A stretch of DNA of 49,993 bases from Pseudomonadota bacterium (GCA_023954855.1 JAGSGY010000038.1:1-49993); one strand, 5' to 3'; counted from the stretch's first letter, positions 15,432 through 42,342 are shown. Translations and numbers: made by a program. Notes: a model not told the origin generated them from the sequence alone.

Positions 15432-17084
15432 CTAGTTCCGGCGACGAAATCCGAGGGGAAGTAGAAGCAAGCCCACACCCAGAGCCGACATCGGCGACGT
15501 GGTCGAGCACCCACAGCCGGCGCGGTTGAAGCGTCGGGCCGCCGTGGCCGCCTCTTCACGGTAGTCGAGCATCACCTCGCCATCGCCTGCATCGCCGTAG
15601 TCCTCGACCAAGATGCCGGCGGGCTCGGTGAGCTCGGACATCAGCTCGAACTCGGTGGTGTCGTGGTTCTCGACCCACTGCTGCGAAGGCAGCGGAATCT
15701 CGCGCCCATCAGCGAGGATCAGCACGCGCTCGGCGTTGTCCCATCCCTCGCCGATGCCACAGTTGATCTGCAGGGTGGCCTCGCGAATGTGACTCATGGT
15801 CTGCGGAAGGTCCCCGTTGAAGACAAACTGCGGGTCGACGGTCATCTCGACGGCATCGAGGGAGCTCGTCATGCGGGTCATGTGACCGTGCGATGCGAGC
15901 ATCAACTCCGCTTCGCGCAGGCCGTCAATCAGCCGCGTTTCCAAGATGTCGGTCGCCGCATTCGCGTCGAAGGCGCTCGAGTCGACATACTCCGAGTAGC
16001 ACTCGAGGCAGTCGTAGAAGTTCGCCGCCGAGATGTCCTGCTTGGCGAGCTCTGCGGGGTACGGAATCACAGCCTTGAAGGTCTCGAGCAAGGCCGCGCT
16101 CGGGGGAAGTCCCATGCCGAGCAGCTGGTCGAGCCACTGGAAGGGCGTGGTCGAGGCACGAAGGGCGTCGGCATCGTAGTACTGCTCGTTGAACACCGAG
16201 CCGCGCATGTCGGCCGTGGCGCCGGAGAAGTCGGTGGCGAAGGCGTGTCCACCCGCCTCATCGGCGGCGATCGAGATGACGTCACTGTAGTTCGAGCCAC
16301 TGTCGAACCAGTTCACCGCCGCGTCGTTGATGGTGACGTGCAGGTAGTTGTCGGGCACCGCGCGGTCCTCGCCAAGCACGTAGACGGTGAGCGGCATATC
16401 GGGCGTGGCCGCGACGCTGGTCAGCTGAATCGGGATGCTCGCGCCATTGCCGGCGTAGCGCATGCCCAGCGGCACCAGGTCTCCGGTCTCGCGACCCGCC
16501 GAGAGCTTCAGGGCCACGAAGAACTGCCGATCAGCAAGGTACGGCGTCAGCACACTATCGAGCGTGTTCGGAAGGTCGTAGCCCGCGTCGTTGAGCCAGG
16601 TCAGCAGCGCGGTCGAGTCGGTGGCCTGCAGTACGACGGTGTCGTACGGACCCACCTGCTCTTGGGCCACGACCGTGACGCTCTCGCCGCCATCGCTCTC
16701 GGGGGAGGCGAAGGCACCGGTGTCCCCTCCCCCGGCAAGAGCGGCATCATTCTGGAAGCCCCAGTCACAGACGCCGTTCGTCTCCCAGTTCAGCCAGAAC
16801 TGCGGCTTGGTACGCGCACTCAGCGCCGAGAACAGCGCATCGGAGGACGTGAACAGCTCGGGCTCTTTGGGGACGGGAACAATCCACGCGAAGTCTTCGC
16901 TCGCGCCCTCGTAGGCGATCGAGACATGACTCGTCACGACGCCCTGGTCCTCGTCCACGCCGAACACGATGGACTCGCCGGCCTGGTCGATCGGGAAGTC
17001 CCGATTGCAGAAGAAGCCGCCGCACGCAAGGGCGTCAGCGGTCGGCCAGAGGGCCAGAACCGAAAGAAGAGCAAGTTGCCGCAT
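15432..17084 (-). CDS. DUF2330 protein with MYXO-CTERM tag (copy 2)
   Basis: This is a 550-residue paralogue of the neighbouring DUF2330 protein, with long identical stretches such as ACGGFFCNRDFPIDQAGE and IQLTSVAATPDMPLTVYVLG and the same overall layout. The start ATG at 17084 has GGAG nine bases upstream and a signal peptide (MRQLALLSVLALWPTADA). The tag GCGCSTTSPMSALG, a hydrophobic helix and GFRRRN end the protein. The two copies differ most in an inserted acidic/Gly-rich segment near residues 125-145, where this copy has GGGDTGAFASPESDGG. The 48-base gap to the other copy suggests co-transcription. Function unknown; surface location inferred from the tag. Confidence 0.9.
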   Translation of the reverse strand: MRQLALLSVLALWPTADALACGGFFCNRDFPIDQAGESIVFGVDEDQGVVTSHVSIAYEGASEDFAWIVPVPKEPELFTSSDALFSALSARTKPQFWLNWETNGVCDWGFQNDAALAGGGDTGAFASPESDGGESVTVVAQEQVGPYDTVVLQATDSTALLTWLNDAGYDLPNTLDSVLTPYLADRQFFVALKLSAGRETGDLVPLGMRYAGNGASIPIQLTSVAATPDMPLTVYVLGEDRAVPDNYLHVTINDAAVNWFDSGSNYSDVISIAADEAGGHAFATDFSGATADMRGSVFNEQYYDADALRASTTPFQWLDQLLGMGLPPSAALLETFKAVIPYPAELAKQDISAANFYDCLECYSEYVDSSAFDANAATDILETRLIDGLREAELMLASHGHMTRMTSSLDAVEMTVDPQFVFNGDLPQTMSHIREATLQINCGIGEGWDNAERVLILADGREIPLPSQQWVENHDTTEFELMSELTEPAGILVEDYGDAGDGEVMLDYREEAATAARRFNRAGCGCSTTSPMSALGVGLLLLPLGFRRRN

Positions 17085-30033: not shown

Positions 30034-32691
30034 GTGATCACGCTTCAGACCGGATCCGTTGACGTCTCGCGGCAGATGTTCTGTACCGCAAGCGGTGAGG
30101 TGCGACTGACGGCACGCGAGGTCGAGCTGCTGCAGTACCTGGCCGCTCGGCCCGGGCACAGCGCCACGCGTGAGCAGCTGCTCGTCGACGTGTGGGGATA
30201 CGCGCCGACCGTGAAGAGCCGCACCGTCGACCTGACCGTGCACCGCCTACGTCGCAAGGTCGAGATCGAGCCGTCGACACCCCGCGTGCTCACGGCACTG
30301 TACGGGCAGGGCTACCACCTCGTTCTCAAGCCTGTGGCTCCGGACTTCAAGACCTCGGCAGGCTTCTTCGGACGCGTCGACGAGCTCGAGGCTCTGGCCT
30401 TGTGGTGGCAGAGCGACGACCGCACGCTGACGCTGCTCGGACCGGGTGGAGCCGGCAAAACCACCCTCCTTCGCGAGTTCCTGGGCAGCCTGAGCCAGCC
30501 CATACAATTCGTGGATCTCACCGCCTGTACCGATGCGACAGAGGTGGCGGTGACCCTCGCCGCGAGCCTTGGCCTGCCGACCACCGATGCCCGGAAGCGC
30601 CTGGTTCACGCCCTGCGCTCACGCGATGGACTGGTGCTCGCCCTCGACAACCTCGAGCAGCTCCAACCCGACGCGCTCGCGCTGATCGCGACGTGCATCG
30701 ACGCGATGCCGCAGAGCCGTTGGCTGTTCACGAGCCGCATCGACTTCGACATGGGCCGCACGCTGGAGCTTGGGGGCCTGGACGGTCCAGACGCCGCCGC
30801 CCTGTTCATCGATCGAGCGAAGCGGGCCTACCCGTCTTTCTCGACCACGCCCTCCGACATGTCCGAGATCGAGGCCGTCGCCGCGAAGCTGGAGGGCGTA
30901 CCGCTTGCACTCGAGCTCGCCGCGTCGCGCATGCGCTTGCTGAGTCCGGCGGCGCTGCTGGAACGGCTCGAGAACCCGCTCGACTTGCTCAGCGACGAAC
31001 AGAGCAGCCATCGCCACGGGGGCCTGGCACAGGTGATGGCCCACTCGTGGATGCTCCTCACCGAGCCCGAACAACACGCGCTCATGCAGCTCTCGTGGTT
31101 TCGCGGCCCCATCACCCCGACCGCAGCCGAGGCGCTACTCGGTCCCGAGGCCCTCAGTCGGGTCGACGCCCTGCTGCGCGCCAGTCTTCTCCGAGTCACC
31201 GATCTTGGCGGACACCGCGTCTACGGCTTCTGGGCCGCCGTCCGCGAGTTCTCGAGACAACAGGCCGACGCGCACAGTGATGCCGACGCACTGCGGCAGC
31301 GCTGGGTCAGTGCCCAGGTCGACCTCGCCAAGCGCATCGCGGACCAGGCCGACGAGCTCGAGTACAGCGCCGTGGTCCTTCAACAAGCACCGGATCTCGC
31401 GAGAGCCGCCGAGTGGGCCCCCGCCTGGCACGGTGAGGGCATCGCCCACCTCGCTCGCGCGTTGATCTTGCTGGCCCGCAACCGCGACATCTCGGGCTCC
31501 ATCGAGACGCTGATCACCCGTGCGATTCGGGGATGCGAGAAACAGGGACTCGCCGCCCTAGAGGGCGAACTCCGACTCGAGCGCGTGCGCGCCCAGCGCG
31601 CCCGGGGAACCCGCGAGAACGCCGCGGCAGATCTGGGGCGCGCCATCGAAGTCGGCAAGCTGTACGGACTTCCCAGGCTCACCGGGCGAGCCCTACAGTC
31701 GCTGGGCAACCTCCAGCTCGACGAAGGGCACGTCGATGACGCCGTCGACAGCTTCGAGGCCGCCCACAAGGTAATGCTGCGTGGCTACCGCCGCGGTCTA
31801 GGACGCTTAGGCTGCGACCGGGCGATGATGGAGCGCCGCCGTGGCGACCTGGAGCAGGCGAGGCAACGCCTGGTGACCGCGGTCGCCCATGAACAGCAGT
31901 ACGGCACCCCCCGCCAACGCATCGTGGCCTTGGGCAACCTCGCCTCGGTCCTTCGCAGCATGAAGCGCTACGACGAAGCCCTCACGACAAGCGCCGCAGC
32001 CATCGACGACGCACGGCAACTGAACGAGCGGGTGACCCTCGCGGGAATGCTCACGAACCGAGGCGCCCTTCTCGTGCAGATGAATCGCTGTGACGAGGCC
32101 ATCGCCCTGTACGACGAGTCGGCCACGCTGAACCGCAATCTCGGCAGTCCCCGAGGCGAGGCCTACGCGCTGGGAGCCAAGGGAAGCACACTGTACGACC
32201 TCGGAGACACCGTCGGTGCCGAGGTCGCGATGATCGAGAGCATGGAGCTGCACCAGATCACGCAAGATCCGCGTGCGACCGGCGTGGCCTGGCTCCAGCT
32301 CGGCAACCTGCGTCATCTCACCGCGGGTGCCGAAGCAGCGCTGCCCGCCTACCACAAGGCTCTCGAACTGCTCTCAGTCGCAAACGCGCCGCCATTGCTG
32401 CAGTACCTCCAGGGGTATCGAGCGATCGCGCTTGGACAATCTGGACAGCTCGAACTCGCCGCGAAGGCGCTCGCTGAGGCCCCGGCCACCGGCCAAACGA
32501 CCCAGGCCGCGAAGTGGTTGCTGGGTTGGGCAGATCCAAAGACGAAGGCGGCCACCGAAGCGGAGCTAATCGCGCACTTCGGGGTCGGCACACTCGCCGA
32601 GGTCCGTGTCCGCTTGGACGCCGGGGCAGAGGGCGAGCCGGGGAAGTTGCTCTCGGGCTTTCTTGCGAAGAGAGGCCTTCAGCCGGCCTGA
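30034..32691 (+). CDS. STAND-type regulator: OmpR-like winged helix, NTPase, TPR
   Basis: This is an 885-residue regulator starting at GTG. Residues about 1-100 are an OmpR/PhoB-type winged helix (LTAREVELLQYLAARPG, REQLLVDVWGY, RTVDLTVHRLRRKVE, GQGYHL). Residues about 110-430 are a STAND/NB-ARC-like NTPase with Walker A GPGGAGKT (136-143), Walker B LVLALDNLEQL, and the GVPLALELAASRMR motif. The C-terminal half is a series of tetratricopeptide-like repeats for binding partner or ligand. The layout is like AfsR without its SARP activation domain. Such proteins switch oligomeric state on a signal to control transcription. It begins 35 bases after the GMC gene on the same strand, so it could be co-transcribed with that operon or regulate it. 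Signal unknown. Confidence 0.9.
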   Translation: MITLQTGSVDVSRQMFCTASGEVRLTAREVELLQYLAARPGHSATREQLLVDVWGYAPTVKSRTVDLTVHRLRRKVEIEPSTPRVLTALYGQGYHLVLKPVAPDFKTSAGFFGRVDELEALALWWQSDDRTLTLLGPGGAGKTTLLREFLGSLSQPIQFVDLTACTDATEVAVTLAASLGLPTTDARKRLVHALRSRDGLVLALDNLEQLQPDALALIATCIDAMPQSRWLFTSRIDFDMGRTLELGGLDGPDAAALFIDRAKRAYPSFSTTPSDMSEIEAVAAKLEGVPLALELAASRMRLLSPAALLERLENPLDLLSDEQSSHRHGGLAQVMAHSWMLLTEPEQHALMQLSWFRGPITPTAAEALLGPEALSRVDALLRASLLRVTDLGGHRVYGFWAAVREFSRQQADAHSDADALRQRWVSAQVDLAKRIADQADELEYSAVVLQQAPDLARAAEWAPAWHGEGIAHLARALILLARNRDISGSIETLITRAIRGCEKQGLAALEGELRLERVRAQRARGTRENAAADLGRAIEVGKLYGLPRLTGRALQSLGNLQLDEGHVDDAVDSFEAAHKVMLRGYRRGLGRLGCDRAMMERRRGDLEQARQRLVTAVAHEQQYGTPRQRIVALGNLASVLRSMKRYDEALTTSAAAIDDARQLNERVTLAGMLTNRGALLVQMNRCDEAIALYDESATLNRNLGSPRGEAYALGAKGSTLYDLGDTVGAEVAMIESMELHQITQDPRATGVAWLQLGNLRHLTAGAEAALPAYHKALELLSVANAPPLLQYLQGYRAIALGQSGQLELAAKALAEAPATGQTTQAAKWLLGWADPKTKAATEAELIAHFGVGTLAEVRVRLDAGAEGEPGKLLSGFLAKRGLQPA

Positions 32692-32765: not shown

Positions 32766-32781
32766 CTACGACAAATCGTAG
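32766..32781. promoter_or_regulatory. candidate BlaI-family operator upstream of the repressor gene
   Basis: A perfect inverted repeat CTACGA-CAAA-TCGTAG lies 11 bases before the repressor ATG and overlaps a TATCTA hexamer that could be a -10. The half-sites resemble the TAC-rich dyads of BlaI/MecI/CopY repressors. Autoregulation is inferred. Confidence 0.55.
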
Positions 32782-32792
32782 TAGGAGACTTC

Positions 32793-33158
32793 ATGGCCCG
32801 TGACGCAGCCCTCGAACGCCGAGTTCTCGATGTGCTCTGGCAGGGCGGTGAGTGGTCGGTCCGGCAGGTGCTCGCGGAAGTCGACGAGCCGCTGGCCTAC
32901 ACGACGATTGCGACTGTTCTCGACCGGCTGCACGAGAAAGGCCAGGTGCAGCGGGTCAAGCAAGGCGTGTCCTGGCAATACTGGGCTGCCCGCAGCAAAG
33001 ACGAGGCCCTCGCGGCAGAAGTCGGGCGCTTGATGGCTCGGGCAGAAGCGGCGCCGGAGCCGATGTTGGTCGCCTTCCTCGACCAGGTGGAACGCGTGGA
33101 CCCCGACGCACTCGATCGCCTCGAGGCCCTGCTCGAAGCCCGCCGGCAGCGCAAATGA
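32793..33158 (+). CDS. BlaI/MecI/CopY-family winged-helix repressor
   Basis: This is a 121-residue protein. I chose the ATG at 32793 because GGAG sits six bases upstream; a further in-frame ATG at 32739 would put the operator inside the coding region. The fold matches the BlaI/MecI family: LERRVLDVLWQGGEWSVRQVL, AYTTIATVLDRLHEKG (recognition helix), and a C-terminal dimerisation helix pair. In the family the dimer binds a dyad and is inactivated when a partner protease cleaves it, or when copper binds in CopY. A CopY-type Cys-x-Cys tail is absent, so direct metal binding is unlikely. It overlaps the M56 protease gene as ATGA, the usual BlaI-BlaR1 arrangement. Confidence 0.93.
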   Translation: MARDAALERRVLDVLWQGGEWSVRQVLAEVDEPLAYTTIATVLDRLHEKGQVQRVKQGVSWQYWAARSKDEALAAEVGRLMARAEAAPEPMLVAFLDQVERVDPDALDRLEALLEARRQRK

Positions 33159-34084
33159 GTGCCCTCGTCCTACCCGTGCTGGTGATCGCGCTCGTCCTCT
33201 CAGCGAGCTGGCTCGCTGCGGCGCTGATCTACCCGATGTGGACCGCGATTGGCTGGGACCGCCCCCGCTGGAGTCGGGCAGCTCCGCTCATCGCCGCCCT
33301 TCCGTGGATTGTCGGGCTGGCGGTGCTCGTCGCCGCGGTTCTGCCCGGAGATCCCCACCACGGCCCGCAGCTTCTCGCCTGCCACTGCAGCACGTCGCAG
33401 CCCGGCTGGGTGCATCTGTGTCCGCACCATCCCGAGCAGGCCATTGGGATGCTCCCACTTGCGCTGCTGGTCATCGCGCTGCTGCTACCCGGCCGCCTGC
33501 GCGCTTGGCAGCGCCTGATCTCCGAGCCGCTCGGAACCGGGACCGGTGCCGTGCCAACGCTGCTCTCCCTCCCCTCCCCCGGAGCGGTGTTGGTGGGCTG
33601 GTGGCGACCTTCCCTGGTCATCGACGCTGGCTTGTGGAGCGCCCTGTCCAGCGACGACCGACACGCACTGGTGGCCCACGAGCGCGCCCATCTCGCCCGG
33701 CGAGACCCCCTGGTGTTGATGGCGATGCGCCTCCTCGTGAGCCTGGGACCGAAGGCCTCTGGCCACGCCCTCACCCGACTCTGGCTCGACGACGCGGAGC
33801 GCTCTGCGGATGCACGCGCCGCCGATGAGGTGGGAGCGACGAACCTGGCCAGCGCCCTGGTTCGCTGCGCACGCCTGGGTCTTGCACCCGCACACGCCCT
33901 CGGATGGACCGGCGGCCAGCTGGAGCGGCGGGTCACCGCCCTGCTCGACGAGAGCCCGCGCGCAGGAACCCCCGCCGTCGGTGCAGCCGACTTCCTGGTG
34001 ATCGGTGGAGCCGTCCTCCTCGCGCTCGCCTCGACGCCTTGGCTGCACCACCAACTCGAGCACCTGCTCAACGCCTCACTCTAG
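33155..34084 (+). CDS. BlaR1-like M56 membrane metalloprotease lacking the sensor domain
   Basis: This is a 309-residue protein coupled to the repressor gene by ATGA. Four membrane helices are visible at about 4-28, 43-65, 96-113 and near the C-terminus. The zinc protease motif HERAH (175-179) sits between helices 3 and 4, with a downstream Glu/Asp-rich stretch (DAERSADARAADE), as in the M56 domain of BlaR1. The protein ends just after helix 4, so the extracellular penicillin-binding sensor domain is missing. The loop between helices 2 and 3, the L2 position that faces the periplasm in BlaR1, is rich in Cys and His: His68, His69, Cys76, His77, Cys78, His87, Cys89, His91, His92. This could bind metal and trigger repressor cleavage. 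The next gene is a metal efflux channel. Confidence 0.9.
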   Translation: MSALVLPVLVIALVLSASWLAAALIYPMWTAIGWDRPRWSRAAPLIAALPWIVGLAVLVAAVLPGDPHHGPQLLACHCSTSQPGWVHLCPHHPEQAIGMLPLALLVIALLLPGRLRAWQRLISEPLGTGTGAVPTLLSLPSPGAVLVGWWRPSLVIDAGLWSALSSDDRHALVAHERAHLARRDPLVLMAMRLLVSLGPKASGHALTRLWLDDAERSADARAADEVGATNLASALVRCARLGLAPAHALGWTGGQLERRVTALLDESPRAGTPAVGAADFLVIGGAVLLALASTPWLHHQLEHLLNASL

Positions 34085-34091
34085 GTGCATC

Positions 34092-35360
34092 GTGCCCACG
34101 CCTGACCTCGCTCGCACCCGCCTTCGACCTACGACATTGCGTCGTAGCTTTGTCTGGGTCTGCGCCATCAGCTCCCCTGCCCTGGCCGCTGGCCCCACGA
34201 CCGAAGTCGAGCTGCTGCAGGCCTATGCCGAGAGTGACCTCGCTCGGTCCGATCTCGACGCGGCTCGCGCGCAGTCCCGCTCAAACCGCACAGTGCCCAC
34301 GCTGTTCGAGAATCCCGCGCTCACTGTGGCCCACGAAGAGGCACGCGGGCCCGCAGGCGCCACCACCGACGTGATTGGCGGCGAGGTCACCGTGGACCTC
34401 GGCCTGTCCGGACTCGCGTACCGAGGGGCGGGACGTGCTGCGAAGCTGAGCGGTGAGCAGCGCGTGGCCCTCACCTGGCTTGACGGAGCCTGCGAGCTAC
34501 GTCGCCGTGCAGTCTCAGCATGGGCGACCGAGACGCTGGCCGATGCTCATCGCCGCACCGCAGACCGGGTCCGCACCCTGTCCGAGAACCTCGCATCCCG
34601 CGCCGACGCTGGCGATGCCTCCGGCTACGCGCGGGATCGCCTGGCCCTCGAGGCCGCCGCCATCTGGCTCGACGCCGATACGGCGACGGGCGACGCCGAC
34701 GCCGAGCGGGCACGACTCGAGGCCTGGATCGGGCGTCCGGTGGAGCAGGTGGCGTTGTCCCCGCTCCCCCCGTTGCCGGCGCTCGAAGATCTCCGTGTCG
34801 AGCTCGACGCCCACCCCGAGCAGATTGCACTTCGCCACGAAGTCGACGCCGCCAAAGGCACACTCGGTGCGGCACAGCGAGCGGCCTTGCCGGACCTGAC
34901 CCTCTCGGCCGCATCACGATGGGATGCACTACCGGACAGTACTGTGGCCAGCCAGGGCTTCGAAGTCGGCGGCGCCCTCGAGCTCCCCCTCTTCGACTGG
35001 TCGCGCAGCTCCGTCCGTGCTGCACAGGCGGGACACGCCACTGCCGAGGCCGACCTTCGTCGCCGTCAGGCCGATCAGCTCGCCGAGGTCCAAGGGGCCT
35101 GGCACCGTGTCGCCGCGCTGAGCAGCGACCTGGCCATGCCCTCACCGGAAGCCGTCTGGCAAGGCGCGCTGCAGCGCTTCGACGCCGGCGAGACCTCGCT
35201 CGAAGCACTTCTTCAGACCGCGGCGGGCGTGCAGTCCGGTGAGGTCGCCCGTATCGAGCGAGAGCGCCGTCTCCGCCTCGCCCATCTCGACCTGTCCTGT
35301 TCGGTGGGGAGTTTCGCGGTCCCCGAGCTGCAGACCGTCCTCGAGGAGTCCCGTCCATGA
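34092..35360 (+). CDS. TolC-family outer-membrane efflux channel (CzcC/CusC-like)
   Basis: This is a 422-residue protein of the tripartite efflux channel family. The GTG at 34092 follows an AGGTG; a TTG at 34137 gives a cleaner 17-residue signal peptide (RRSFVWVCAISSPALA) and is an alternative. The body has the long coiled-coil helices and two repeated halves of TolC proteins: ELLQAYAESDLARSDLDAAR, RADAGDASGYARDRLALEAA and ADQLAEVQGAWHRVAALSSDL. It would carry ions across the outer membrane in a complex with the adaptor and RND pump encoded next. The start region contains an inverted repeat shared with the repressor operator. The stop overlaps the adaptor ATG as ATGA. Confidence 0.88.
   Translation: MPTPDLARTRLRPTTLRRSFVWVCAISSPALAAGPTTEVELLQAYAESDLARSDLDAARAQSRSNRTVPTLFENPALTVAHEEARGPAGATTDVIGGEVTVDLGLSGLAYRGAGRAAKLSGEQRVALTWLDGACELRRRAVSAWATETLADAHRRTADRVRTLSENLASRADAGDASGYARDRLALEAAAIWLDADTATGDADAERARLEAWIGRPVEQVALSPLPPLPALEDLRVELDAHPEQIALRHEVDAAKGTLGAAQRAALPDLTLSAASRWDALPDSTVASQGFEVGGALELPLFDWSRSSVRAAQAGHATAEADLRRRQADQLAEVQGAWHRVAALSSDLAMPSPEAVWQGALQRFDAGETSLEALLQTAAGVQSGEVARIERERRLRLAHLDLSCSVGSFAVPELQTVLEESRP
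34129..34147. promoter_or_regulatory. second CTACGAC inverted repeat at the channel-gene start
   Basis: CTACGAC-ATTGC-GTCGTAG is a perfect 7-bp inverted repeat. Its half-site matches that upstream of the repressor, but the spacer is one base longer and the arms are extended by one. It lies within or just before the channel gene start and could be a second operator or roadblock. Confidence 0.45.
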
Positions 35361-36886
35361 GTCGCCTACCCCTGTTGCTTGCCCTTATGCTCGGCGCATG
35401 CGGCGAAACCGAAGTCGGTCACGGCCATGCCCACGGCCCCGACGGTTCGCATGCCGACCCCAGCGAGGACGATGGGACGACCCTGGCCGTGACCCGCTGG
35501 GCAGACGGCCACGAGTTCTTCGCCGAGTTCGATGGCCCCGTCGCAGGTCACGCCGTCGGCTACGCAGCACACGTCACCCAGCTGACCGGCTTCGCGGCCG
35601 CTACCACCGGCTCTCTGCAGCTCCGCTTCGAGCAGGATGGCTTCGCCGTTGAGTCGCACACCGACCCCAAGGTCGCGCGCCCCGGCGTGTTCATCGGCGA
35701 GCTCACCGGTCCGGCGAAGCCCGGCAAGTACGCGCTCATCGCGAGCTACACCGATGGGGAGACCCGCGCCGAGTGGCGAATCGACGACGTGGTGGTCGGG
35801 CAGGGACGCGCACCCCAAGTCGAGGCCGAGCCGGAGGGTGAGGTCGGGTTCCTGAAGGAGTCGCAGTGGCAGGTGCCCTTCGCTGTACAGGCCGCCAGCG
35901 TGCAGCCGCTGTCCCCGGTGCTCGCCGTCGCGGCGACGGTCCGATCCGCCCCTTCCTCCACCGCAGTGGTCGCTGCACCCGCCGATGGCCTCGTTGCCTG
36001 GGCCGGCGACCTTCCGGTTCCTGGCCGCCGAGTGAAGCGAGGTGAACGACTTGCGACCTGGCTTCCCGTTGGGGAGTCGGCTGACTACGCCAAGCGCCAA
36101 GCCGACCTGGCCTCAGCCCAAGTGGCCCTCGACCTCGCCGAGAAGGAGCTCAGCCGTATCGAAGAGCTCCACGGCAATGACCTCGTCTCGGAGCGACGAC
36201 TCGAAGAAGCGCGCGGAGCCGAACAGTCGGCACGCGCCGGGCTCGTCTCTGGAGAGCGACGCCTGCGCGCTTTGACCACATCGGGATCGGGTGCAGTACC
36301 GGTCGTCTCGCCGGCGGATGGCCTCATCGTGCACGTCGGCCCGGCCCATGGGGAGGCGGTTTCCGCCGGTGACAGCCTCGTCCGTGTGGCCTCTGGCAGC
36401 GCGGTACTTCTCGAAGGCCACGTGCATGAACGAACGGCGGGAGAGCTCGGGAACGTCGCCTCGCTCTCGGTCCACCGCGGTGACTGGGACGAGCCTCGGG
36501 ACCTGCTCTCCGCGGGTGGACGCCTGCTCACCGACGTGCTGGTCTTTGATGAGCACACGCTCTCCGCACCGGTGGCCGTGCTCGTCGAGAACGACGTCGG
36601 TCTAGGTACCGGAGACCTCGTCGAGTTGCAGATCGGCGTGGGCGAGCCCACCCCGCGACTCACCATTCCCCGCTCTGCCGTCGTCGAGATCAACGGACAG
36701 GACATCGTCTTCGTGCAGAAGACCGGCGAGTCCTTCGCGCGCCGCCGGGTCACGCTCGGCGAAGCCGACCCCACGTTGGTCGAGGTGCTCACGGGCATCG
36801 AGGCCGGCGAGAAGGTCGTCACCACCGGCGGCTACGACATTCACGTCGCCGCACTTTCAGGGACTCTCGAGTCCCACGCGCACTGA
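35357..36886 (+). CDS. RND efflux adaptor (CzcB/CusB-like) lipoprotein with His-rich N-terminus
   Basis: This is a 509-residue periplasmic membrane-fusion protein. The N-terminus is a lipoprotein signal (MSRLPLLLALMLGACG, lipid Cys15) followed by a His/Asp-rich stretch (HGHAHGPDGSHAD) suitable for metal binding. An extra beta domain fills about 40-170. Then come the barrel-sandwich lipoyl half-motifs (APADGLVAWAGDLPVPG and SPADGLIVHVGPAHGEAV), separated by a hairpin of coiled helices (ADLASAQVALDLAEKELSRIEEL), and a C-terminal beta barrel ending SHAH. Adaptors join the RND pump to the channel and may load metal onto it. The metal is not predictable from sequence; Cu/Ag, Zn, Co or Ni are possible. 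It overlaps the channel gene and lies seven bases before the pump gene. Confidence 0.93.
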   Translation: MSRLPLLLALMLGACGETEVGHGHAHGPDGSHADPSEDDGTTLAVTRWADGHEFFAEFDGPVAGHAVGYAAHVTQLTGFAAATTGSLQLRFEQDGFAVESHTDPKVARPGVFIGELTGPAKPGKYALIASYTDGETRAEWRIDDVVVGQGRAPQVEAEPEGEVGFLKESQWQVPFAVQAASVQPLSPVLAVAATVRSAPSSTAVVAAPADGLVAWAGDLPVPGRRVKRGERLATWLPVGESADYAKRQADLASAQVALDLAEKELSRIEELHGNDLVSERRLEEARGAEQSARAGLVSGERRLRALTTSGSGAVPVVSPADGLIVHVGPAHGEAVSAGDSLVRVASGSAVLLEGHVHERTAGELGNVASLSVHRGDWDEPRDLLSAGGRLLTDVLVFDEHTLSAPVAVLVENDVGLGTGDLVELQIGVGEPTPRLTIPRSAVVEINGQDIVFVQKTGESFARRRVTLGEADPTLVEVLTGIEAGEKVVTTGGYDIHVAALSGTLESHAH

Positions 36887-36893
36887 GGCAGGC

Positions 36894-39800
36894 ATGTGGA
36901 ATGCCCTGATTCGCTGGTCGCTGGACCACCGCCCCGCCGTGCTCGCCATGGCCGCGTTCTTGCTCGCTTGGGGAAGCTGGACCACCACGTCGCTGCCCGT
37001 CGACGTGCTTCCCGACGTGAACGCACCGACCGTCACCGTGCTCACCGAGACGCACGGCATGGCACCCGACGAGGTGGAGACGCTGGTCACCGTGCCCCTC
37101 GAGACGGCACTGAACGGCACGCCGGGCCTCCGCCGTCTGCGCTCTTCTTCCGGCATCGGCATCAGTGTGGTCTGGGCCGAGTTCGACTGGGACACCGACC
37201 CCTACCGCGCCCGCCAGTCGATCACTGAGCGGCTTCAGGTCGCGCAGCTCCCGCCCGACTTGCCACCTCCGGTCCTTGCCCCCATGTCCTCGATCATGGG
37301 CGAGATCTTGTTTCTCGGACTGACCGGCGACGCCGACACCGACCCGATGGACGTGCGTGATTTCGCAGACTGGGAGCTTCGGCGACGCCTGCTCGGCATT
37401 CCCGGCGTGGCTCAGGTCACCCCCATCGGCGGAGAGCTCCGTCAGGTACAAGTCGAGCTCGACCCCGGCGCCATGGAGCGCGTCGGCCTCGGTCATCGCC
37501 AGGTCCTCGAGGCCCTCGACGGCGCCAGCGAGAACGCACCCGGCGGCTTCATCACGAGCGGCCACAGCGAGTACCTGGTTCGCGCGATTGGACGCGCAGA
37601 GACCCTCGAGGACCTCGGTCACATCGTCGTGGGACGGGTCGAGGATGTCCCGATCTTCCTGCATCAGGTCGCCGAGGTCCGGCAGGGCGCTGCTCTCTCA
37701 CGCGGCACCGCTGCCATCAACGGCATCCCGGGCGTGGCCCTCGCCGTACAAAAGCAGCCAGAGGCCAACACCCTCGCCCTGACCGCAGCCATCGACGACG
37801 CGCTCGACGACCTCGAGGCCTCGGTTCCGGACGGAATGACGCTGCACCGCCAAGGCTTTCGCCAAGCGCGCTTCATCGAGACCGCCATTGGCAACGTCCG
37901 CACGCACTTGATGGAGAGCGCGGTCTTCGTCACCCTGCTGCTGATGATGTTCCTCGCGAACTGGCGCACCACCGTCATCTCGCTGCTCGCGCTCCCGCTG
38001 TCTCTTCTCGCGGGCGTCCTCACCCTGTGGGCCCTCGGCATCGGCTTCAACACCATGACTCTCGGCGGCCTCGCCATCGCGATTGGCGCGCTGGTCGACG
38101 ACGCCATCATCGACGTCGAGAACGTGTACCGGCGCCTGCGCCTGCGCGCCTCGATGCCCGAGCACGAGCGCCCCGAGCTGCTCGACACGGTCTACGAGGC
38201 CTCGGTCGAGATTCGCAGCTCCATCGTCTACGCCACCGCAATCATCGTGGTCGTCTTCTTGCCGCTGTTCTTCTTCAGTGGTCTGGAAGGGCGCCTGCTC
38301 GCCCCCCTCGGAACAGCCTACGTCGCCAGCCTGCTCGCTTCGCTCGTCGTGGCGGTGACGGTCACACCGGTGCTGTGCAGCCTGCTGCTCACCGACGTGC
38401 CGGCCGGAGAGGAGGAAGCCGACTCGCGCGTCGTGCGCTGGCTCAAGCGCGCGTATCGACCCCTGCTGCGCGGTGCCCTGCGGCGACCCCGCCGGGTCAT
38501 GGGCCTCTCAGCCTTGGGCGCGGTCATCGCCTTGGGCATCCTGCTCAGCTTCGGACGCTCCTTTCTCCCGACCTTCAACGAAGGCGCGTTCACGCTGGCA
38601 GCGGCCACCCCTCCCGGCACACCCCTCGAGCAATCCGACGCGACGGTTCGCCGGCTCGAGGAACGGGTCACCGCCTTGCCGATCGTCGAAGCCGTCGTCC
38701 GACGCACAGGCCGAGCCGAGCGCGACGAACACGCCCAGGACGTGCAGTTCTCGGAGCTCGAAGTGACCGTCTCTCCAGAGGTCAGCCGCACCGAAGCTGC
38801 CGCAGCCCTACGCGAGGCTGCGAACGTGCCAGGGCTCGTCGTGAGCGTCGGCCAACCCATCGGCCACCGCATCGAGCACATGCTCTCCGGCGTGAAGACG
38901 TCGCTCGCCATCAAGGTCTTCGGCGACGACCTCGGGGAGCTCCGTCTCGCGGCCCAACAGGTCGAGCAATCGGTCGCGGGCATTGAAGGACTCGTCGATC
39001 TGTCGGTCGAGCAGCAGACCGAGGTGCCACAGGTCACCATTCGCCCGCGCTTCGGCCCGCTCGCCGTCTTGGGCCTCACGCCAGGGGAGCTCGCCGAGTG
39101 GGTCGAGACCGCACTGGTCGGACACCCCGTTGGCCAGTGGTGGCAGGGCGGCCGCTCCTATGACCTAGTCGTGCGCTACCCGGCGAGCTTCCGGAAGGAC
39201 TTGACGGCGTTGCGTGGCGCGCCCATCGACGTCGACGCCGAGCGGGTGACTGCGCTGGACCAAGTCGCTCGCGTCGACCGCACCTTGGGGCCGAACCTGA
39301 TCCAACGCGAGAACGCCAAGCGCCGTATCGTCGTGATGGCCAACGTCTCTGGCCGAGACATCGCCAGCGTGACCCGCGAGATTCGCGCGGCCCTGCCCGA
39401 GCTCGGCGGGGGCATGTACGTCGACATCGGCGGTCAGGCGGCCAGCGAAGAGAAGGCCACCCGGACCATCGCGACCCTCTCGGTGATCGCGATTATCGTG
39501 ATGTTCGGCTTGCTCGTGTCTGCCCTTGGTTCGGTGCGCGATGCCGGCGTGGTGATGGTGAACCTTCCACTCGCGCTCATCGGAGGCGTGCTGGTCGTCG
39601 CGACAAGTGGAGGCGTGCTCTCGGTGGCCTCGTTGGTCGGCTTCATCACCCTGTTCGGCATCGCGACCCGCAACGGCATCTTGCTCGTGACCCACTACCA
39701 CCACCTGATCCGCGCCGAGCACGCGACCCTCGCCGACGCGGTCCTCCGGGGAAGCGAGGAGCGCCTGGTCCCCGTGCTGATGACCGCACTCGGCACCGCG

Positions 39801-39968
39801 CTCGCACTCGTCCCGATTGCCGTCGCCGCGGGCGAGCCGGGCAACGAGATCCAAGCCCCGATGGCGGCCGTTATCCTCGGAGGACTCGCGTCCTCCACGC
39901 TTCTTGTCCTGCTCGTGCTGCCCGTTCTGTACGTTCGCTTCGGCCGACCTCCTGGAGAACCCACATGA
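36894..39968 (+). CDS. HME-type RND efflux pump (CzcA/CusA-like)
   Basis: This is a 1024-residue inner-membrane pump with the twelve-helix duplicated RND layout, two large periplasmic loops, and N-terminus WNALIRWSLDHRPAVLAM. The helix-4 motif is AIGALVDDAIIDVEN, with Asp402 and Asp403 in the proton-relay position, as in heavy-metal RND pumps; other family signs are DVLPDVNAPTVTVLTETHGMAPDEVE and the second-half FGIATRNGILLVTH. It drives metal ion export by proton influx, taking substrate from periplasm or cytoplasm. The copper-specific Met triad of CusA is not obvious to me, so the ion is left open. It is followed by the His-rich lipoprotein gene with an ATGA overlap. Confidence 0.95.
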   Translation: MWNALIRWSLDHRPAVLAMAAFLLAWGSWTTTSLPVDVLPDVNAPTVTVLTETHGMAPDEVETLVTVPLETALNGTPGLRRLRSSSGIGISVVWAEFDWDTDPYRARQSITERLQVAQLPPDLPPPVLAPMSSIMGEILFLGLTGDADTDPMDVRDFADWELRRRLLGIPGVAQVTPIGGELRQVQVELDPGAMERVGLGHRQVLEALDGASENAPGGFITSGHSEYLVRAIGRAETLEDLGHIVVGRVEDVPIFLHQVAEVRQGAALSRGTAAINGIPGVALAVQKQPEANTLALTAAIDDALDDLEASVPDGMTLHRQGFRQARFIETAIGNVRTHLMESAVFVTLLLMMFLANWRTTVISLLALPLSLLAGVLTLWALGIGFNTMTLGGLAIAIGALVDDAIIDVENVYRRLRLRASMPEHERPELLDTVYEASVEIRSSIVYATAIIVVVFLPLFFFSGLEGRLLAPLGTAYVASLLASLVVAVTVTPVLCSLLLTDVPAGEEEADSRVVRWLKRAYRPLLRGALRRPRRVMGLSALGAVIALGILLSFGRSFLPTFNEGAFTLAAATPPGTPLEQSDATVRRLEERVTALPIVEAVVRRTGRAERDEHAQDVQFSELEVTVSPEVSRTEAAAALREAANVPGLVVSVGQPIGHRIEHMLSGVKTSLAIKVFGDDLGELRLAAQQVEQSVAGIEGLVDLSVEQQTEVPQVTIRPRFGPLAVLGLTPGELAEWVETALVGHPVGQWWQGGRSYDLVVRYPASFRKDLTALRGAPIDVDAERVTALDQVARVDRTLGPNLIQRENAKRRIVVMANVSGRDIASVTREIRAALPELGGGMYVDIGGQAASEEKATRTIATLSVIAIIVMFGLLVSALGSVRDAGVVMVNLPLALIGGVLVVATSGGVLSVASLVGFITLFGIATRNGILLVTHYHHLIRAEHATLADAVLRGSEERLVPVLMTALGTALALVPIAVAAGEPGNEIQAPMAAVILGGLASSTLLVLLVLPVLYVRFGRPPGEPT

Positions 39969-40462
39969 CTCTCTTCCTCGCCCTACTGCTCGCCTGCGGA
40001 CCCACAGAAGAAGAACCGCATGGGCACGACCACGACGCCCCGGCGGCGCACGAGCACGAAGCCGACCACGCGCATGGTGACGAAGCCCACCACGACACCC
40101 CCGCAGGTCCTGAGCCTGCCGCCATCGGCGAGCGCTCCATGCGCATCGAGCCGACCGCGACCACGTTGCGCGTCGTGCTCACCGAGGCGGACGGCAAGCC
40201 TGCGACGACCGCCGGCGAGGCCAAGGTCGTGCTCACCGGCACCGGTGAGGAGGAACAGCGCCTCGTGCTCACTCCCGACGGAGAGGCCTGGACGGCACCG
40301 GCCAACGCCGAGGGCGCCAAGGGCTACACCGCCGTCGTCAGCGTCGAGATCGACGGCGTCACCGAGGTCGCTCGCTTCGCCTGGGGTGACGTCCCTGCCC
40401 CGAAGACCCACGACCACGGCGACGGCGGGCACGACCACGGCGACGGGGACCACGCGCACTAG
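39965..40462 (+). CDS. small His-rich lipoprotein of the metal efflux cluster
   Basis: This is a 165-residue predicted lipoprotein (MTLFLALLLACG, lipid Cys11). It has a His/Glu/Asp-rich block at about 18-45 (PHGHDHDAPAAHEHEADHAH), a beta-sandwich-like middle of about 90 residues (MRIEPTATTLRVVLTEADGK), and a second His-rich tail (HDHGDGGHDHGDGDHAH) at the C-terminus. His-rich tracts bind Zn, Ni, Co or Cu. It overlaps the pump gene as ATGA, so it belongs to the cluster and probably acts as a periplasmic metal buffer or chaperone. I know no named family for it. Confidence 0.85.
   Translation: MTLFLALLLACGPTEEEPHGHDHDAPAAHEHEADHAHGDEAHHDTPAGPEPAAIGERSMRIEPTATTLRVVLTEADGKPATTAGEAKVVLTGTGEEEQRLVLTPDGEAWTAPANAEGAKGYTAVVSVEIDGVTEVARFAWGDVPAPKTHDHGDGGHDHGDGDHAH

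Positions 40463-40560: not shown

Positions 40561-42342
<1,782 letters not shown>

Follow-up and report, generated by a model that had tools for sequence, protein, structure and literature searches.

Positions 32793 to 40462 of the window, the whole stretch of 49,993 nucleotides analyzed here (contig 171 of a 6.1-Mb draft genome), carry six plus-strand genes for a BlaI-type repressor, a short M56 protease, a channel, an adaptor, a heavy-metal (HME-RND) pump and a His-rich lipoprotein. We consider it likely that this locus works as a self-contained switch that senses metal across the membrane and controls a tripartite metal-efflux operon. A previous sequence-only reading had proposed that a loop of the protease senses periplasmic metal and triggers cleavage of the repressor, and this interpretation is supported as far as sequence goes. 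The gene content, synteny, residue conservation, predicted fold and predicted operators described below were all read from the sequence.

The operon and its predicted operators

The features of the locus are as follows.

32766-32784, unstranded: putative operator 1, inverted repeat CTACGACAAATCGTAGTAG, −27 to −9 of the blaI start
32793-33158, plus strand: BlaI-type repressor, 121 aa, no Cys, no CopY-like tail; Pfam PF03965, 82.1 bits
33155-34084, plus strand: short M56 (BlaR1-like) membrane protease of 309 aa with four transmembrane helices and without a penicillin-binding domain
33341-33430, plus strand: L2 loop of the protease, residues 63-92, with core ligands H77, C78, H87, C89 and H92 at 33383-33430
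33677-33691, plus strand: catalytic HExxH motif (residues 175-179); E215 and D219 follow later in the chain
34046-34063, plus strand: motif H298 H299 x x E302 H303 in the C-terminal helix, candidate for the other half of the metal site
34092-35360, plus strand: outer-membrane channel (OEP/TolC type); Pfam OEP, 53.9 bits
34129-34147, unstranded: putative operator 2, CTACGACATTGCGTCGTAG, within signal-peptide codons of the channel gene
35357-36886, plus strand: periplasmic adaptor, lipoprotein-like, His-rich N terminus; NCBIfam RND_mfp, 109 bits, over cutoff
36894-39968, plus strand: HME-RND pump; TIGR00914 over cutoff, alignment with CusA
39965-40462, plus strand: His-rich lipoprotein-like protein, 165 aa

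All six genes of the cluster named in the sequence-only reading were recovered, and the channel, adaptor and pump match Pfam OEP, HlyD and ACR_tran, respectively. Adjacent genes are separated by 4-nt overlaps, as between blaI and the M56 protease gene, or by gaps of 7 to 8 nt, and we therefore read the six genes as one operon; the “tight overlaps” noted earlier were nearly right, except that some of the joints are short gaps. The start of the channel gene, chosen by comparison, is likely the GTG at 34092. The His-rich lipoprotein-like protein scored above the cutoff for no Pfam or NCBIfam family, and relatives of it occupy the same position in two other loci (L029 and L030). Upstream, a large regulator (30034-32691) with a winged-helix domain, an AAA/NB-ARC-like ATPase and TPR repeats lies directly before operator 1; its gene ends about 100 nt before the operon and is outside the conserved set. 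Just downstream of the operon, a minus-strand open reading frame (40561-42342) encodes a long DADTDADAD repeat followed by FG-GAP-like repeats.

The repressor belongs to the BlaI/MecI family, scoring 82.1 bits against Pfam Penicillinase_R (cutoff, 22.6), and reached 39.5 bits against the CopY/TcrY model TIGR02698, far below the cutoff of 121.95. It contains no Cys at all and so lacks the Cys metal-binding tail motif of CopY, confirming what had been noted earlier. Among 75 pump-linked BlaI proteins, 61 have no Cys and 14 have one; none has more.

The predicted operators follow the pattern CTACGAC-N5-GTCGTAG and its variants. Inverted repeats at the repressor's own gene and at its target, as in BlaI/MecI systems, were found as two sites per locus in 10/10 close loci: operator 1 holds nearly the same position upstream of blaI, and a copy of operator 2 lies 42 to 59 bp past the M56 stop codon (or matched end), mostly within the signal-peptide codons of the channel gene. 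In L026 and L031, arms of the CTACTACA.. type at one site are matched by the same type at the other despite a changed encoded peptide, as would be expected if the DNA site changes along with its repressor. By chance, 0.02 occurrences of the pattern would be expected in the window, versus three sites found. One operator-like palindrome, TACGACGGTGTCGTA, is located at 16632-16646, inside a minus-strand open reading frame (15432-17084). A stricter pattern gave a single match outside the locus in the whole genome (G000:C155:40929), in a peroxiredoxin gene, which we rejected as a coincidence because it spells peroxiredoxin codons (YDNFVG). With the pattern reversed as a control, the raw count across the whole genome was similar, and thus the case for the operators rests on where they lie and how well they are conserved. 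The repeats of more distant relatives, such as CTACGATTGACAATCGTAG, include the sequence TTGAC, and a −35 box may overlap them; plasmid loci carry similar repeats (AAACCGATTGACGGTCGGTTT). Together, the conserved pair of predicted operators supports a tie between the repressor and the pump operon, and with it the earlier proposal that the repressor controls the efflux cluster.

A BlaR1-like protease with a predicted two-part periplasmic site

The protease scored 26.4 bits against Pfam M56 (PF05569), below the cutoff of 31, and 22.6 bits against the related M48 model, above the cutoff of 20.3. A Pfam scan found no penicillin-binding domain, and the chain ends at residue 309, 17 residues past TM4 and after a short helix, in agreement with the sequence-only reading. 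An AlphaFold2 model built from an alignment of 51 diverged relatives with a mean column identity of 34% (alignment A2) has a pLDDT of 91.3 and a pTM of 0.87. It consists of helices 2-35 and 37-62, the loop 63-92, helix 93-122, the protease domain, helix 277-292 and a tail helix, 294-308. The best matches among solved structures were five BlaR1 cryo-EM entries, with Z scores of 9.6 to 12.4 over residues 11 to 258, which is moderate for a helical protein and under the level of about 13 that the tool advises for helical bundles. These were followed by ZMPSTE24 and Ste24, which match over the protease domain; families missing from the list are not thereby excluded. Foldseek on its own was weak (best E, 0.004). 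We assign the protease a predicted BlaR1-like fold, with a four-helix membrane part and a cytoplasmic HExxH protease, and the HExxH motif and the partner BlaI point the same way. The catalytic residues H175, E176 and H179 are invariant in alignment A2 (51/51 sequences); of the two acidic residues further along, D219 is present in 51/51 and E215 in 50/51. The same genome encodes a second BlaI-linked M56 protein (G000:C135:25536-26414; L001, L206), in an open frame of 610 aa, with neither the loop cluster nor a neighboring pump.

The L2 loop holds nine Cys/His residues (H68, H69, C76, H77, C78, H87, C89, H91 and H92). All nine residues of the set given in the sequence-only reading (68-92) are therefore present, but just five are broadly conserved. 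H77, C78, H87, C89 and H92 are retained in every homologue of alignment A1, which comprises nine close (46 to 54% identity) and ten distant (26 to 30%) sequences from the same taxonomic order. In the 51 relatives of alignment A2, these five core ligands are kept at 84 to 96% (H77 in 43, C78 in 46, H87 in 49, C89 in 47 and H92 in 48), close to the level of the catalytic residues, so that retention of loop Cys/His among orthologues in the same context, on which the earlier proposal hinged, holds for the core. H68, H69 and H91 showed no conservation among the same 51 relatives, and C76 is found mainly in the close clade. At the C terminus, H298 is present in 51/51, H299 in 42/51 and E302 in 50/51 sequences of this alignment. 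This second conserved site, H298/H299/E302, was missed by the sequence-only reading and is part of the feature.

The side of the membrane on which these sites lie was assigned with the positive-inside rule. Lys and Arg make up 1.4% of the L2 loop and 0.8% of the tail, compared with 12% of the protease domain and 25% of the first short loop, and both the loop and the C-terminal tail are therefore probably periplasmic. In BlaR1, L2 and the C terminus are where the sensor makes contact, and the same two elements of the protease model sit at this place.

Pump linkage, spread and candidate metals

The order BlaI-M56-channel-adaptor-pump recurs within the taxonomic order at about 50% M56 identity, as well as in other phyla and on plasmids, and hence is not due to chance. 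In a first sample, a scan of genome contigs seeded with alignment A1 in which a pump within 5 kb downstream of the M56 gene counted as linked, at least four Cys/His in the loop window were present in 36/37 pump-linked M56 proteins versus 3/23 with room but no pump, and a C-terminal HxxxE was present in 36/37 versus 5/23. A second sample, obtained by searching whole genomes across the phylum and applying the same cutoff, gave 32/44 pump-linked versus 3/12 unlinked M56 proteins for the loop; it is partly independent, as at least six loci repeat the first sample, judged by identical loops (L155/L064, L156/L079, L157/L094, L161/L072, L171/L054 and L174/L096). Of the 12 pump-linked misses in this sample, one is a misplaced window (L155), two are divergent (L191 and L214), and the remaining nine have the tail together with a smaller loop of the form C-(x2-3)-H-(x4-9)-C. 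Under a wider loop definition made after these misses, loop and tail are both present in 78/82 pump-linked rows and both absent from 27/35 unlinked rows. We rejected the Fisher P values of the two samples as independent tests, given the overlapping loci and just three independent contrasts on supported tree branches, which are too few for a test; for this reason, we place weight on deep-divergence conservation and not on the contingency tables. At one locus (L112), a pump with a motif unlike the HME ones adjoins an M56 gene that lacks both loop and tail.

By hand count, about 62 of 284 sampled Myxococcota genomes contain a match of at least 138 bits, and the operon is also present in Pseudomonadota and on plasmids of Shewanella sp. 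ANA-3, Pseudomonas aeruginosa, Salmonella enterica, Pseudoalteromonas donghaensis and Glaciecola. The plasmid operons are annotated as a BlaI- or CopY-type regulator, an M56 peptidase, a TolC-type channel, an adaptor and a CusA/CzcA pump, and their proteases carry both loop and tail. In 3/5 (L219, L220 and L221, from Shewanella, Salmonella and Pseudoalteromonas), the operon continues into a gene of the HupE/UreJ family, a hint that the metal is nickel or cobalt; a divergent DUF3147 gene precedes the BlaI-M56-RND operon at the same three loci. At another locus (L078:4489-6696, plus strand), an M56 gene with the loop has no pump beside it; next comes the gene for a TonB-dependent receptor that contains SHAHGQGY(L)DLHF, and a similar frame occupies this position in L158. 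Other metal-related genes of the envelope may be under the control of this sensor as well.

The loop ligands vary with the type of pump. Cys2His3 loops mostly go with A(I/V)G-x3-DDAI-type pump motifs, His-only HWHH..SWH and CxxH..HLCxWH loops go with DFGL(L/I)VDGA(I/V)IIVEN pumps, and Cys-His-Cys loops mostly go with DFGLIIDGAIVVxEN pumps. These pairings bear on an alternative in which a structural metal in loop and tail merely stabilizes the periplasmic face while the real signal, for example envelope stress, is answered by the pump. Conserved Cys and His residues alone cannot separate a sensing from a structural site; however, ligand sets that vary with pump type (Cys2His3, Cys-His-Cys or His-only) fit metal tuning better, and we regard the structural alternative as unlikely.

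The window pump scored 739.7 against NCBIfam TIGR00914 (CusA/CzcA; cutoff, 701.45) and thus belongs to the HME-RND pumps, but its TM4 motif, AIGALVDDAIIDVEN, fits none of the known-metal signatures found. Where CusA has M573, M623 and M672, the pump has A, F and H, and so it lacks the three methionines of HME4. Nor does it carry DFG-DGA-VEN, the TM4 signature of HME1 and HME2 (CzcA, CnrA), which are Zn/Co/Cd and Co/Ni exporters (PMC3637150), whereas several linked pumps elsewhere do. Copper or silver could be sensed instead, as the copper response of PetR/PetP (PMC7896320) and the binding of Cu+ by Cys/His sites would allow, but in an alignment with CusA none of about 80 linked pumps has Met at a triad position, several carry the HME1/HME2 motif, and the window adaptor scores nearer CzcB than CusB (after RND_mfp, the CzcB/NccB model of NCBIfam comes next, below its own cutoff). 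Copper and silver are therefore disfavored, and sensing of either seems quite improbable. A divalent cation (Zn, Cd, Co or Ni) is likelier than Cu+ or Ag+ for the window system, given the linked pumps without the methionine triad, the His-rich character of both adaptor and lipoprotein, and the CzcB-like score of the adaptor.

The two conserved cysteines could also pair in an oxidizing compartment, making the loop a periplasmic thiol/disulfide switch. Against this, the conserved set includes three loop His plus H298 and E302, and one clade, with DFG-type pumps, has the Cys-free HWHH..SWH loop with the same tail and operon; a redox switch is thus very unlikely. That a BlaR1/BlaI β-lactam system lies beside a metal pump by accident has only family history in its favor and can be dismissed, since the sensor domain is absent from both the Pfam scan and the model, the protein ends 17 residues after TM4, and predicted operators and synteny join the protease to the pump.

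Proposed mechanism and known systems

We propose that at rest a BlaI dimer on the two operators, one at blaI itself and one where the channel gene begins, would keep the operon low. The M56 protein would be a membrane zinc protease of the BlaR1 type whose antibiotic-binding domain has been lost and whose periplasmic metal site is formed by the L2 Cys/His cluster (H77, C78, H87, C89 and H92) together with the HHxxE helix after TM4. A toxic divalent cation that accumulates would bridge or order loop and tail and shift the transmembrane helices, and this shift would switch on the cytoplasmic protease, leading to removal of BlaI and derepression of the pump. We favor this mechanism because loop and tail ligands are conserved at a near-catalytic level in segments low in Lys and Arg on a BlaR1-like predicted fold, because two operators in 10/10 close loci, synteny with metal pumps and pump-loop covariation accompany them, and because BlaI lacks a metal-binding Cys tail and PetR/PetP offers a precedent (PMC7896320). 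From this evidence we infer metal binding, the identity of the metal, the loop-tail contact, metal-protease coupling and BlaI cleavage. On balance, we also lean toward the broader view that the locus represents widespread, partly plasmid-borne one-protein sensors, in which a two-part periplasmic metal clamp (L2 loop and TM4 tail) replaces the β-lactam domain, exchangeable ligand sets (Cys2His3, Cys-His-Cys or His-only) match the linked RND pump, and readout is by BlaI proteolysis.

If true, this would add a further route beside two-component regulation, the mode of control described for HME-RND pumps in the literature covered here; the new route would take its reading straight from the periplasm and act through proteolysis. 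The system, which is common in Myxococcota and also occurs in Pseudomonadota and on conjugative plasmids, would also offer a natural experiment on the switching of BlaR1-type proteases, with the large antibiotic-binding domain replaced by a short loop and a tail that can be altered one residue at a time. Open-licence papers yielded no account of HME-RND pumps governed by an M56/BlaI pair; neither the application to HME-RND efflux nor the Cys/His L2 loop, HHxxE tail or paired operators appear to be described there, which is weak evidence of novelty, whereas metal-triggered loss of a BlaI-type repressor is of a kind already known from PetR/PetP.

In Synechocystis, the BlaR1-family protease PetP determines how much of the BlaI-family regulator PetR is present when copper is available (PMC7896320, PMC12292863). 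The window system would share with it a metal-responsive BlaI-type regulator under a BlaR1-type protease, but PetR/PetP responds to copper and targets the plastocyanin and cytochrome c6 genes, not efflux. Two cyanobacterial (Xenococcaceae) loci (L061:3994-5273 and L067) encode a BlaI/M56 pair, with a 281-aa protease without loop Cys/His, that is possibly PetR/PetP. In Cupriavidus metallidurans, HME-RND pumps are under two-component control, and there too a metal-efflux operon is induced by way of a membrane protein (PMC10127602); that control uses a histidine kinase and a response regulator, not repressor proteolysis as proposed here. The copper repressors CopY/TcrY come from the same repressor family and likewise target metal export, but the window BlaI has no Cys metal-binding tail, and we place sensing in the partner protease. 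With BlaR1/BlaI and MecR1/MecI of staphylococci, the locus shares a BlaI-type repressor, inverted-repeat operators, an M56 HExxH protease and a BlaR1-like predicted fold; it differs in that its protease has a Cys/His loop and an HHxxE tail in place of a penicillin-binding domain, and in that its target is an HME-RND operon.
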